Assembly (NCBI GenBank): GCA_016196035.1
Contig: JACPYM010000023.1
Span: 1-64,000, forward strand
Reading direction: 5' to 3'
Source: Acidobacteriota bacterium
GTDB lineage: Bacteria; Acidobacteriota; Blastocatellia; RBC074
DNA length: 64,000 nt
Below the pieces are notes generated by a model. That model did no database searches. It was not told the origin of the DNA and was given only the letters and a program-made list of their open reading frames with translations. The position numbers were made by a program, and so were the translations under genes. The stretch's first letter is position 1. Each line of letters begins with the position of its first letter. Positions 4,741 to 41,211 of the stretch are shown here, piece by piece.

Positions 4741-6969
4741 ATGATGAAGATGCAATGGCAAAAGATGTTGTTTTTGATGGTTGCTTTGTCTTGCCTGGCC
4801 AAGGCGCAGGTTCTTTATGGCTCGCTCACAGGCAACATCACAGACCCGGCCGGAGCGGTCGTGGCAGGCGCCAAAATTGATGTATTGAATATCAGTACCG
4901 GTGTCTCACAAAGCGCAAGTACTGATGAGCGAGGCAGTTTTCAGTTCAATAACCTGCAAGCTGGTGTTTATAAGCTGACCGTAACAGCGCCGTCTTTTAA
5001 GACGATGGTGCAGGACAATCTTAAGATTGACGCGAATACCTCCCGACGGCTTGATACACAGTTAGAGGTCGGAGATGTGAGCAGTGCCGTTCAGATCAGC
5101 TCTGATGCACCTGTGCTACAAACTGAGCGCGCCGACATCAATGTTGTTCAAACGACGCGGCAGATCAATGACCTGCCCTTAACGGGCAGCGTCGGACGCA
5201 ATTACCAAAGTCTGATGGGGCTGGTGCCAGGGGCGATTAATCAGGGGGAGCAAAACTCCGCAGCCGGTAGCCCGCAGCGTTCCATCTCATTTAATGTAAA
5301 CGGTGTATCACGCCTGCAAAACAATACTCGTATTGATGGCTCTAGTGTCATCTATCCTTGGCTACCAACTAATACTGCTTATGTCCCGCCTGCCGAAGGC
5401 ATTCAAGAAGTCAGCATTGTCACGAATTCTTTCGATGCCGAGCAAGGGCTTGCCGGCGGTGCGGCGGTCAACGTCACGATCAAGACCGGAACCAATGGCG
5501 TGCACGGCGCGGGCTGGGGGTACGACACCAATAGTGCGACGGCAGCGCGCAACTATTTTCAGACGACACCGCAAGTGCCCAAGAGTATCGTCGCACAATA
5601 CGGCTATGCCGTGGGCGGGCCGATCATCAAGAACAAGTTGTTCTTTTTCACTGATCTAGAACGTAGCACTCAGCGGAATTTTGCGCGGGTTCTCTCTTAC
5701 AGCCTGGCGCCAGCCAGCCTGCGCCCTGGTGCGTCGGGCGCGGTGGATTTCAGCAGTACCGGCGTGACGGTTTACGATCCGGCCTCCAATGCCGACCCCT
5801 CGAAGCGGACGCCGTTCGCTAACAACATCGTCCCAGCCAATCGCGTTGATCCGGCGGCGCTCGAATTCATCAAGCGGTTACCGCAACCCACCGGGTCGGG
5901 GTTTGTCAACAACTACACCCCGACCGGCGTGGCCGAATTCAACCGCACCAACATTGACAGCAAGGTCAATTACAACGCGGGCGGAAAGCTGACGGCGTTT
6001 GGGCGCTACAGCATCTCGCCGACCCTCATTATTGACCCGCCGATTCTGGGCGATGCGGGTGGCGACGCGCTCAACGGCGGTCAATTAGGCACCGCTCCCG
6101 GACGCGTACAAATTGCTGGCGCGGGCGGGACCTACACGTTCAGCCCGGCTTTGATTCTGGACGCGAACGTCGGCTACACGCGCCAGCGGCTGGGGGCAGA
6201 GGCTTTCGACATTAATTCAAACTTTGGTTTGGATGTATTGAAAATCCCCGGCACGAACGGCCCGGATCGGTTGCAGGGCGGCGCGCCGTTTTTCAACGTC
6301 AGTGGTTGGGCCAATATGGGCAATTCCAACACGGGCAATCCGTTCCTGTTCCGCGACAATCAATACGTGGGCACCGCGAACCTGTCGTGGTTTCGTGGCG
6401 CACACTCATTGCGCTTCGGCCTGGATTACCAGAATCAACAGATCAATCACTTCCAACCGCAGGGCGGCACGTTTCAGACGGTACGCGGCACGTTCCAATT
6501 CAACGGCAACGCTACCCGCTTGCAAAACGGTCCTACGCCGACAGACACACGCTATAACTCGTGGGCGGATTTCCTGCTCGGGTTGCCCAGCGGCGCGGGC
6601 AAGGTGGATCAACTGCGCAATCCGAATGCGCTGCGCATACTTTCGTATGCCTTGTATGCGCGCGATCACTGGCAGGTGAATCGCAAGCTGACCGTAACCT
6701 ATGGCCTGCGTTGGGAGCGCTATCCGTTCCCCGACAAAGACAACACAGGCATCAATCGGTTTGACCCGGCGGACGGGAATGTATACACGGGCGGATTGAG
6801 TAACGTGCCGCGTAACACCGGCGCGAGTTCCGGGCCAGGCCACTTCCTGCCGCGCTTTGGCATTGCCTGGCGCGTGAATGACAAGTTGGTCGCGCGCGCA
6901 GGGTATGGGATGTCTACCGATCCGCGCCCATTCATTGATTTCCGCAACCCCACTTTTCAAGAATCATGA
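4741..6969 (+). CDS. TonB-dependent receptor, Oar-like with carboxypeptidase-regulatory domain, C-terminally truncated
   Basis: An outer-membrane receptor of the acidobacterial type. It has a signal peptide (about 1-22), a CarboxypepD_reg-like domain (about 27-110, GNITDPAGAVVAGAKIDV), a TonB plug (about 120-250) and the first part of the beta-barrel (GLDYQNQQ, YALYARDHWQVNRKLTVTYG). Family members run to about 1000-1200 residues; this one stops at 742 shortly after GYGMSTDPRPFIDFRN, so roughly the last third of the barrel is missing. Its stop overlaps the next start by 4 bases, suggesting a deletion that joined it to the GH35 gene. The first 650 bases are less GC-rich than the rest. Import of xylan oligosaccharides is inferred from context. 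Confidence 0.82.
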   Translation: MMKMQWQKMLFLMVALSCLAKAQVLYGSLTGNITDPAGAVVAGAKIDVLNISTGVSQSASTDERGSFQFNNLQAGVYKLTVTAPSFKTMVQDNLKIDANTSRRLDTQLEVGDVSSAVQISSDAPVLQTERADINVVQTTRQINDLPLTGSVGRNYQSLMGLVPGAINQGEQNSAAGSPQRSISFNVNGVSRLQNNTRIDGSSVIYPWLPTNTAYVPPAEGIQEVSIVTNSFDAEQGLAGGAAVNVTIKTGTNGVHGAGWGYDTNSATAARNYFQTTPQVPKSIVAQYGYAVGGPIIKNKLFFFTDLERSTQRNFARVLSYSLAPASLRPGASGAVDFSSTGVTVYDPASNADPSKRTPFANNIVPANRVDPAALEFIKRLPQPTGSGFVNNYTPTGVAEFNRTNIDSKVNYNAGGKLTAFGRYSISPTLIIDPPILGDAGGDALNGGQLGTAPGRVQIAGAGGTYTFSPALILDANVGYTRQRLGAEAFDINSNFGLDVLKIPGTNGPDRLQGGAPFFNVSGWANMGNSNTGNPFLFRDNQYVGTANLSWFRGAHSLRFGLDYQNQQINHFQPQGGTFQTVRGTFQFNGNATRLQNGPTPTDTRYNSWADFLLGLPSGAGKVDQLRNPNALRILSYALYARDHWQVNRKLTVTYGLRWERYPFPDKDNTGINRFDPADGNVYTGGLSNVPRNTGASSGPGHFLPRFGIAWRVNDKLVARAGYGMSTDPRPFIDFRNPTFQES

Positions 6970-38363: not shown

Positions 38364-40532
38364 TCAACCGGCAGCGAATTTTTCGCAGTAACTGACAAAT
38401 TCCTGCGCCTGCTCCAACGCCGCGTTCGCGCTGAGTTCAGCGGGGCTGTCGGTTTTCAGGCTCTCGAAGCTGGCGGACAAGGCGTGCCAGGAACCGCCGG
38501 TTTGACCGGAAAGCACGAACAGGTTTTCAAATTCCCACAAGGCTTCCAACGAAGTGAACGGGTCAACCAGCTTTTGATAGAGCGGCACGCGGGCGGCGGC
38601 GGCGGCGGCTTCATAAGCTTCGAGCAAGGCTTGTTCGTAGTTGCCGTGTTGAATATACGCCGCCGTCTGCGCCAGCCGCGTGTGGGCTTTGTCGAAGGTG
38701 GGAACGACTTCGGCAATGGTCGTGCCAGCGCATTCGCCGCGCACGCCGGAGCGCACGGTGAAGCGCTCATTCTCATGCCCATAATCGTCATAAAACTGTG
38801 GATCGTCCTCAAAGGCCGGGATCGCTTTGTGCGGCTCAAGCGCTTCTTTCACACGCTGATCGCCGATGCGCGCGAGGAAGGCGTTGAAATCCTCGCCCGG
38901 TTGCTTTTCGGTGTCGTGCAAAGTCAGCAAGGCTTCGACGACGTTGATGGCATTGCGGGCTGGGAAGCGGCCAAAGACTTTGGCCGCGCGCGGCTTGCCG
39001 TGATTGGCTTGGCCGCCCAGGAAAAGCAGATGCGCGGGCAGATTGTGTCCGTTCTGTGTGACGGCAGCGGCGTGAAAGCCGATGTTGGCCACGGCGTGTT
39101 GTGCGCAACCATTCGGGCAGCCGGAGATTTTGATGCGCAAGTCGCGGTGCGCTTCAAAATGCGGCGCGAGCTTGCCGTTGAAAAACGAATCGGAAATAGC
39201 TGTACCCAGCCCTTTGGCCGAGGCGATGCCCAGGCGGCAGGTGTCAGCGCCGGGGCAAGCCGTCACATCGGCGATGGTTTCGGCTCCGGCATCCGCCAGC
39301 GCAACGGTTTTGAGCGCGGCGTACAATCCCGGCAAGTCAGTCACACGCACCCAGGGCAGAAATAGATTTTGTTCAATCGAAACGCGCAGTTCGCCAGCGC
39401 TGTATCGGCGCGCGAGGTCAGCTAATGCACGGGCGTTATCAGACGTAAGGTCACCGAACTTGGTGCGCACGTGCACGCCGCGCAGGTTTTCGACGCGATG
39501 GGCGATGACCGAATCGCGCGCCCATTGCTGATACTGCAGGTCATTCGTCAGTGGGTTCAGCACGTTGAGCGAGGTCGCAGTTTCGGCCAGCACCGGTGTG
39601 GTGGCTGCTTCCAAAAAATCTGTCAACGGCGGCAGCGGATCGAGGGCCGCACGTTCGGCATCCACCGCCGCGCGAAACTTTTCCCAGCCCATGGATTGCA
39701 CCAGAAACTTCAGGCGCGCTTTCATCCGCTGCTTGCGCTCGCCGTAGCGATCGAAGATGCGAATCACCGCCGTCGTGAAATTGAACAGCTCTTCGACCGG
39801 CAGGAAGTCGCTGTAAATGTGCGCAAGGTGCGGGCCGCTGCCCATGCCGCCGCCGACGTGCACGCGGAAGCCGCGTTGCACCTGCCCGTTCTCTTCGCGG
39901 ATGACGGCGTGAAAACCCAGATCGTGAAAGGCCAGCGCGGAGTGGTCCGCGGCGCAACCTTCAAAGGCGAATTTCATTTTGCGCCCCATGTTCTGGTTGT
40001 GTTTGTTGCGCAGCAAAAACTTAAACAACGCTTGGGCGTAGGGGTAAACGTTGAAGACTTCGTCGTGCGCAACGCCTGCGCGGTAACAGGCCGTGATGTT
40101 GCGCACGGTATTGCCGCAAGCCTCGCGCGTGGTGATCCCGACTTCGGCGAGTTCGCGCAGCAAGGCGGGCGCGTCTTCTAATTGCAAGTAATAAAGCTGG
40201 GCGTCTTCGCGCGTGGTGAAATGGATAAAACCGCTGGCATAGCGGTCGGCGGTATCGGCCAGGCGCGTCAATTGGTCGGCATTCAAATAACCGCCCGGGA
40301 TTTTGATGCGTTGCATCTGCACGCCATCTTGCCGTTGGGCATAGGTACCGAACTGTAGGCGGAACTTTTGCATCTTGGTTTCACCCAGTTCACCGGCGCG
40401 GTATTTTTTGATTTGCTTTTGGTACAGCGCCAACTCTGCTTCGATGGTGGGAGAGAGCGGTTGCACAGCGAGAGGTTGGACTGCCAATGAGGGGGCGCTT
40501 GATTTTTCTGCCTTAACTGAAATCGCGTTCAT
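38364..40532 (-). CDS. Ferredoxin-type siroheme sulfite/nitrite reductase with C-terminal helical extension
   Basis: 722 residues. Two ferrodoxin-like half domains with parallel-beta siroheme domains are visible. The 4Fe-4S/siroheme cysteines are in TACPGADTCRLG and KISGCPNGCAQH. NTVRNITACYRAG and GFRVHVGGGMG are further family motifs. The enzyme reduces sulfite to sulfide (or nitrite to ammonia) with six electrons. The last 140 residues (from about 580) form an Ala-rich, HEPN-like helical extension beyond the usual end. The ATG at 40532 follows CAGGAGCATC; longer starts lie inside the attenuator. The cysteine-codon leader upstream favours a sulfite, that is cysteine-biosynthetic, role. Confidence 0.9.
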   Translation of the reverse strand: MNAISVKAEKSSAPSLAVQPLAVQPLSPTIEAELALYQKQIKKYRAGELGETKMQKFRLQFGTYAQRQDGVQMQRIKIPGGYLNADQLTRLADTADRYASGFIHFTTREDAQLYYLQLEDAPALLRELAEVGITTREACGNTVRNITACYRAGVAHDEVFNVYPYAQALFKFLLRNKHNQNMGRKMKFAFEGCAADHSALAFHDLGFHAVIREENGQVQRGFRVHVGGGMGSGPHLAHIYSDFLPVEELFNFTTAVIRIFDRYGERKQRMKARLKFLVQSMGWEKFRAAVDAERAALDPLPPLTDFLEAATTPVLAETATSLNVLNPLTNDLQYQQWARDSVIAHRVENLRGVHVRTKFGDLTSDNARALADLARRYSAGELRVSIEQNLFLPWVRVTDLPGLYAALKTVALADAGAETIADVTACPGADTCRLGIASAKGLGTAISDSFFNGKLAPHFEAHRDLRIKISGCPNGCAQHAVANIGFHAAAVTQNGHNLPAHLLFLGGQANHGKPRAAKVFGRFPARNAINVVEALLTLHDTEKQPGEDFNAFLARIGDQRVKEALEPHKAIPAFEDDPQFYDDYGHENERFTVRSGVRGECAGTTIAEVVPTFDKAHTRLAQTAAYIQHGNYEQALLEAYEAAAAAARVPLYQKLVDPFTSLEALWEFENLFVLSGQTGGSWHALSASFESLKTDSPAELSANAALEQAQEFVSYCEKFAAG

Positions 40533-40569: not shown

Positions 40570-40608
40570 AAAGCGCCCCGGCTCCTGTGGTTGGAACCGG
40601 GGCGCTTT
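40570..40608 (-). terminator. Attenuator-type terminator hairpin before the sulfite reductase gene
   Basis: A 12-bp GC-rich stem (40570-40581 with 40597-40608), with three further inner pairs and a 7-base loop. On the minus strand it is followed by TTTGCTTTG. It ends 37 bases before the reductase start and begins 20 bases after the leader-peptide stop, so it would stop transcription before the structural gene unless an alternative fold forms. Confidence 0.7.
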
Positions 40609-40628
40609 TGCTAAATCCGTGCGGCATC

Positions 40629-40697
40629 TCAATTCTGCGTGATGCGGCGCTTAGGCGACCAGTTCCACTTGGCTTTAGCCTTACAACAACAACACAT
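40629..40697 (-). CDS. Cysteine-rich leader peptide of the sulfite reductase attenuator
   Basis: A 22-codon ORF whose product starts MCCCCKAKAKWNW: codons 2-5 are four consecutive TGT cysteine codons. It lies between a good promoter and a terminator hairpin upstream of an assimilatory-type siroheme reductase. The RNA for codons 11-13 (UGGAACUGG, 40659-40667) can pair over 9 positions, one a G-U, with CCGGUUCCA (40592-40600) in the 5' arm and loop of the terminator. Stalling at Cys codons when Cys-tRNA is scarce would leave this antiterminator free. No strong Shine-Dalgarno precedes the ATG. Function is inferred from architecture. Confidence 0.65.
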   Translation of the reverse strand: MCCCCKAKAKWNWSPKRRITQN

Positions 40698-40800
40698 CGT
40701 CAATGCGCGGCATTTGGCGCTTGGTTGTTCGGACGTATGTGGAAAGGAAAAGTAAAGGTTCACGATCTGCCTACCGATAAATTGAGAATTGGACTGACCG

Positions 40801-40829
40801 AAAATACTGGCGCGTCGCAGGATTGTCAA
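40801..40829 (-). promoter_or_regulatory. Sigma70-type promoter of the leader/sulfite reductase transcript
   Basis: On the minus strand, TTGACA (40829-40824) and TATTTT (40806-40801) are separated by 17 bases. Transcription would start near 40794, giving about 97 bases before the Cys leader ATG. Confidence 0.65.
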
Positions 40830-40901: not shown

Positions 40902-41024
40902 GGTGTCAGTAGCGCAACCCTGCCGAGGTTGCGCGGCTTCCGCGCTTACTTAACTGACAGTTCAACTGGCGGCTCAGGTAGAAGTGCCTGAAGCCGCGCA
41001 ACCTCGGCAGGGTTGCGCTACACC
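40902..41024. repeat. Family C hairpin element (GTAGCGCAACC type), copy 2
   Basis: Perfect 32-base arms at 40909-40940 and 40990-41021 (arm begins GTAGCGCAACCCTGCCGAGG) around a 49-base loop. GGTG/CACC extends the arms outward with a 3-base insertion on the left. Further out, TGCGACA (40874-40880) and TGTCGCA (41031-41037) are also complementary. It separates the reductase promoter from the metalloprotease gene. Confidence 0.85.
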
Positions 41025-41211
41025 AGCGAATGTCGCACGTCCTTCTAAGAACACCTGTTGCAACCTTAGACGTTACACGAAATTTTGTAGGAGTTGCCAT
41101 CCTTCAGCCGTTGGCGTGCTTTCCCTCTTACGCTTGTATCAAGTATGCTGCGCGCGTTCGCATGGACTTTCACTAACAACTCTCAAACAAATTCGAAGAA
41201 GGAATTCACCT

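Follow-up and report, generated by a model that had tools for sequence, protein, structure and literature searches.

We have found a sulfite reductase gene (sir) in Acidobacteriota which is very probably controlled by a ribosome-mediated transcription attenuator of the trp type: the leader of this assimilatory gene would sense charged tRNA-Cys. It lies in the window, as we will call the whole stretch of 64,000 nt that we have analysed. The sir leader does not appear to be isolated. In Blastocatellia-type Acidobacteriota sulfur assimilation is likely to form a regulon which senses Cys-tRNA, with two kinds of polycysteine leaders in one genome. Some would be terminator attenuators (sir; in relatives cysK and cobA-cysH-cysC-nirA), the others have no terminator and carry their Cys run at the end of the ORF (sat-cysC-cysH and peroxiredoxin/cysM; in relatives, ORFs which overlap the cysK start). 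The same design seems to recur in other Acidobacteriota lineages and in one genome each of Balneolaceae and Chloroflexi. These leaders are a concrete, conserved and testable case of attenuator function in an abundant soil phylum, and they probably explain how Acidobacteriota regulate their cysteine synthesis.

Organization of the sir locus

We will start with the window, where all elements are found on the minus strand in the order promoter, leader ORF, terminator hairpin, Shine-Dalgarno sequence and NirA/sulfite reductase gene:

40829-40801, minus strand: sigma-70-type promoter TTGACA-17-TATTTT, read from the sequence
40763-40629, minus strand: leader ORF in its probable full length of 44 codons, starting with GTG, (M)NLYFSFPHTSEQPSAKCRALTMCCCCKAKAKWNWSPKRRITQN*, from the open frame and the ORFs of relatives
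40697-40629, minus strand: 22-codon version of the leader ORF, ATG start, MCCCCKAKAKWNWSPKRRITQN*, as in the original prediction
40694-40683, minus strand: regulatory codons, four consecutive Cys, all TGT, directly after ATG 40697
40667-40659, minus strand: antiterminator strand (segment 2) TGGAACTGG, which starts 15 nt past the last Cys codon
40631-40629, minus strand: leader stop codon
40605-40593 / 40585-40573, minus strand: intrinsic terminator hairpin, GC-rich, 13 bp, dG about -29 kcal/mol, followed by TTTGCTTT
40600-40592, minus strand: segment 3 CCGGTTCCA, a stretch of the terminator 5' arm and loop, partner of segment 2
40572-40565, minus strand: interrupted U-tract UUUGCUUU, read from the sequence
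40541-40537, minus strand: reductase Shine-Dalgarno sequence AGGAG, outside the hairpin, read from the sequence
40532-38364, minus strand: sir, NirA-family siroheme 4Fe-4S reductase, 722 aa, from protein families and operon context

The promoter, the four Cys codons, the hairpin and the reductase are each present where the original prediction had placed them. Its leader of 22 codons exists as a frame starting at ATG 40697, but the real leader is probably longer, 44 codons from GTG 40763: the frame is open upstream as far as this GTG, and the closest relatives (L002, L003, L004) have an in-frame ATG 22–25 codons before the Cys run, which gives ORFs of 41–45 codons from the matching place. No clear Shine-Dalgarno sequence is found at the leader start codon. 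The upstream neighbour of sir is a divergent gene, so that the promoter at 40829-40801 is the only one seen feeding the terminator. The region which separates the two divergent genes also contains, ahead of the promoter, a long, near-perfect inverted repeat with arms of about 30 bp (TAGCGCAACCCTGCCGAGGTTGCGCGGCTTC), in positions 40910-41030.

From this anatomy and its conservation we infer leader translation, stalling, termination and a response to cysteine, as follows. Transcription would begin near 40794 and a ribosome would enter the leader ORF. With little cysteine available, this ribosome would pause at any of the four Cys codons with its footprint ending just before segment 2, which would be left free to pair with segment 3; the terminator would be prevented and sir transcribed. 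With abundant cysteine it would proceed, cover segment 2 and reach the stop codon, which is placed between the two segments. Segment 3 would then fold with the 3' arm of the terminator and transcription would end before sir. As in a trp-type attenuator, an intrinsic terminator lies between leader and gene. That segment 2 is free on a waiting ribosome and covered by a moving one is what the geometry predicts: the distances between Cys codons, segment 2 and stop codon fit the ribosome model.

Conservation of the cysteine leader

The genome has 9.6 Mb and contains 230 runs of four TGY codons. Such runs are thus common and a single locus is weak evidence; a plain search for TGY runs gives matches which are too frequent to inform. 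We have therefore compared 100 upstream regions of homologous reductases, collected by a homology search of genomes, looking for short ORFs in which 7 codons include three or more Cys, followed 25–150 nt later by an intrinsic terminator. The combination is found in 23 of them, which correspond to 21 distinct loci, far beyond chance: only 0.09 are expected from dinucleotide shuffles. Such a number of sir loci upholds the layout of ribosome-mediated attenuation tuned to Cys-tRNA that had been proposed from the window alone, with a run of regulatory codons in a leader ORF as a trp-type attenuator has. The carriers belong to the family and class of the window, to another family of Acidobacteriota, to a Balneolaceae MAG (L129) and to a Chloroflexi MAG (L144). 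Some sir orthologues lack the element. A covariance-model search of the genome of the window gives one strong full-length copy; the other matches are either terminator-only or weak, save one which falls on the window locus itself, but in the opposite strand.

Outside the cysteines the leader peptides vary: MCCCCPAK.., MVCCCCCKSH.., ..CLCPCCCMG.., ..CACICTC.., ..CVCRCTC.., ..CMCCC.., ..CSCPRMCMC.. and ..CICCC.. are found. This variation bears on the possibility that the Cys codons are incidental, with a hairpin that acts as an ordinary terminator or as the platform of a metabolite riboswitch, which we judge extremely unlikely. The abundance of TGY runs in the genome (230 places) speaks for it, as do weak SAM_alpha-like matches at some nirA homologues elsewhere, but the Cys run is kept as an ORF in 21 loci while the residues around it differ (as in CACICTC, CVCRCTC, CMCCC and CSCPRMCMC), and there is no upstream gene in need of a terminator. 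Rfam riboswitches and T-boxes gave no match at the gathering cut-off in the window and 15 homologous loci. The SAM_alpha (SAM-II) riboswitch-like sequences are below threshold and found only before other nirA genes (L022:1241-1312, L025:2446-2377); in L025 a CCC leader ORF is found ahead of the SAM_alpha-like sequence, and attenuator and riboswitch may occur there in tandem.

The position of the leader is also regular. In the window the stop codon is found 63 nt past the first Cys codon; the distance is 45–72 nt, upstream of the terminator, in 20 of 22 leaders. A similar promoter (-35 match in 5–6 of 6 positions, spacer 16–18) precedes the Cys run by 33–149 nt in 17 of the 22 homologous leaders. 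TGT represents 80% of the leader Cys codons versus 33% in the genes of the window, with differences between genomes uncontrolled; such a bias fits selection for the less-used codon.

Terminator and alternative pairings

The terminator hairpin is conserved in position and covaries. In an alignment of nine sequences its helix is 96.6% paired with four two-sided pairs, a score reached by none of 500 shuffles. The U-tract is uninterrupted in several relatives and interrupted in the window.

To locate segment 2 we looked, past the last Cys codon of each leader, for the best helix without interruption that could form with the 5' arm of the terminator; contiguous helices were used because a duplex test between leader and terminator half which allows bulges had little power at single loci. 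In the window the helix joins TGGAACTGG, which starts 15 nt past the last Cys codon, and CCGGTTCCA. At 15–16 nt, close relatives have GAAACCGG/CCGGTTTC, GGGAACCGG/CCGGTTCCC and similar pairs. In other leaders the segments are unrelated in sequence (CCGGTAGTGGGC/GCCCGCTATCGG, for example) and begin mostly 4–20 nt past the last Cys codon, and the same geometry is built from unrelated sequence in other lineages, for example CTCTCCGGCGGTGG with CCACTGCCGGAGAG before cysK. For most leaders the start of segment 2 falls 9–18 nt past the last Cys codon, and in the nearest relatives 15–16 nt, as would be expected from the footprint of a ribosome. Leader and terminator are more complementary than with shuffled leaders (Fisher combined P about 1e-11 in 14 representatives, an indicative value as they partly share ancestry).

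The antiterminator helix is 92% paired in the alignment of nine sequences, with two two-sided pairs, and the values drop at most slides. Its covariation is modest: 13 of 500 shuffles match the covariation score, 28 of 500 are paired to the same percentage, and covariation is higher at the -1 slide. As judged from the sequences compared, the predicted main pairing, in which the leader UGGAACUGG joins the 5' arm of the terminator, is kept with compensatory changes, and the segment changes together with the terminator. A competing segment for the 5' arm is thus found as in trp-type attenuators; a few leaders have only a weak one or none, and in L010, L114 and L072 we did not find a strong 2:3 helix. 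In this way the comparison of orthologous upstream regions suggested with the original prediction has confirmed the Cys mini-ORF, the terminator and, among the alternative stems, the main pairing (40667-40659 with 40600-40592). A second pairing had been proposed between AAGCGCC (40652-40646) and GGCGCTT of the 3' arm. It exists in the window but is not conserved: 56% of the cells are paired, which does not exceed shuffled sequences.

The segments differ completely from one lineage to another while their spacing is kept, so that they constitute a natural experiment on the evolution of attenuators.

Nature of the reductase

The protein has the two NIR_SIR families of Pfam. It belongs to the NirA family, whose members are easily annotated as nitrite reductases, and we have identified it as a likely sulfite reductase. 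An assimilatory nitrite reductase, with a Cys leader that senses the general state of translation or redox instead of the cysteine supply, seems to us highly improbable. Its best matches among solved structures are indeed tobacco nitrite reductases, and in NCBIfam the NirA family scores best; it stays below its cut-off, as does the ferredoxin-nitrite reductase model. The active-site motif is RKMK, however, versus RKWN in the wild-type tobacco enzyme, and we take the last residue of this motif to separate sulfite (Lys) from nitrite reductases (Asn). Another close match, NirA of M. tuberculosis, is a sulfite reductase.

The genomic context points in the same direction. Orthologues without a leader are found directly behind the APS kinase gene cysC (L115) or the siroheme methyltransferase gene cobA (L134), and a more distant NirA-family gene forms part of attenuator-cobA-cysH-cysC-nirA (L281). 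The same genome has a separate NirB-like gene (C102), and no CysI-type reductase was found. The product of sir is most likely an assimilatory sulfite reductase for cysteine, by its operon context and active-site lysine, so that the predicted target makes the amino acid sensed, as in trp-type attenuators. A role in cysteine biosynthesis had been argued from the leader; it is supported by the orthologues in cysC/cobA/cysH operons and by the other polycysteine leaders on cysteine-pathway genes. The reductase also has a C-terminal extension of about 150 residues (window 38364-38840) without any Pfam match, which distant homologues seem to lack.

Other cysteine leaders

The genome of the window has at least three polycysteine leaders on transcription units of the cysteine pathway, one of which is sir; the search was made gene family by gene family and the count is a lower bound. 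The other two are:

G000:C99, L261 reverse-complement coordinates 6650-6811, minus strand: sat leader ORF, the Cys codons of the run are all TGT
G000:C84, L275:4982-5113, plus strand: peroxiredoxin leader ORF

The sat-cysC-cysH leader is a 53-codon ORF which ends in CCCCCRCCC* and has its own TTGACA-17-TATTTT promoter. This type is kept in five relatives, with the endings CCCCCCCR*, CCCCCCCC*, CCCCCRCCC*, CCCCCR* and CCCHTCCCS*. The other ORF, which ends in ..CCCSRTETCTCCCR*, precedes a peroxiredoxin gene upstream of cysteine synthase (cysM/cysK). A small hairpin is found round its stop codon, seemingly compensated between species (GTCGG/CCGAC versus GCCGG/CCGGC). Neither of these two leaders has an obvious terminator in this genome and their Cys codons are found at the stop codon.

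In relatives both kinds of leader are found. Those with a terminator are found ahead of cysK (L255-L260; segments 2 and 3 form a 14-bp helix in three of them) and ahead of operons of the cobA-cysH type (L202, L209, L290). The cysK/cysM genes of L255-L260, L264 and L271, which lie behind Cys leaders with intrinsic terminators, belong to other Blastocatellia families. Short ORFs which end in CCCCR* or CCCCC* reach or overlap the start of cysK (L277:2549-2596; L278, minus strand, 999-1064) and suggest translational coupling. In the same genus (G001, L110:2441-2584) an ORF which ends in NCCCCCMCCRCC* lies upstream of a different gene of the NirA family, at a distance of about 330 nt.

The leaders without terminator raise the possibility that sir is controlled by translational attenuation, as in mycobacterial polycysteine uORFs: a stalled ribosome would alter RNA folding or coupling, and the hairpin would be incidental or a barrier. 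Mycobacterial cysteine operons have polycysteine uORFs without conserved terminators (PMC1262725) and are described as cases of translation attenuation (PMC13236596); the sat and peroxiredoxin leaders and the interrupted U-tract of the window favour the same mechanism. We nevertheless consider it very unlikely for sir, where the Shine-Dalgarno sequence of the reductase (40541-40537) is outside the hairpin and the Cys codons are not beside the stop codon. Moreover, the GC-rich hairpin and U-tract are conserved in position and covary, and the leader strand targets exactly the 5' arm.

Comparison with known systems

The trp, his and leu attenuators of Enterobacteria are the classical cases of ribosome-mediated attenuation. 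They share with the sir leader a peptide with regulatory codons, a 2:3 antiterminator opposed to a 3:4 terminator and a stop codon between the segments. They differ in amino acid, phylum and target gene, and their segment sequences are unrelated.

A 2010 survey contains almost no predicted attenuators of Acidobacteria with a known function (PMC2965389). The original prediction knew of no Cys attenuator in this phylum, and we have found no description of one, nor of a cysteine regulon with a sir attenuator, in the literature searched, which mostly excludes subscription journals. Cys leaders are known in actinobacteria, as had been noted (PMC1262725), yet they are not confined to them: the uORFC-8-2 motif of Rhodobacterales, which precedes cysS and has an intrinsic terminator, is predicted to be a Cys attenuator (PMC8632094). 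It resembles the sir leader by its uORF with tandem Cys codons, its intrinsic terminator and the ribosome-mediated attenuation by Cys-tRNA supply proposed for it. Compared by its description, it differs in being found in Alphaproteobacteria, with two Cys codons and a cysteinyl-tRNA synthetase gene; here we have Acidobacteriota, mostly three to six Cys codons, and sulfite reductase and other assimilation genes.

Actinobacterial polycysteine leaders also have runs of Cys codons in short ORFs ahead of cysteine-assimilation genes (PMC1262725), and translation attenuation with leaderless ORFs has been reported for them (Canestrari et al. 2020, as cited in PMC13236596). Their Cys codons are near the stop codon and they have no conserved terminator, whereas in the sir leader an antiterminator competes with an intrinsic terminator. 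This leader does not share the mycobacterial arrangement, with Cys codons beside the stop codon and no terminator, which in this genome is found in the leaders of sat and of the peroxiredoxin gene. The presence of polycysteine leaders with and without terminator in one genome makes possible a side-by-side comparison of both mechanisms.
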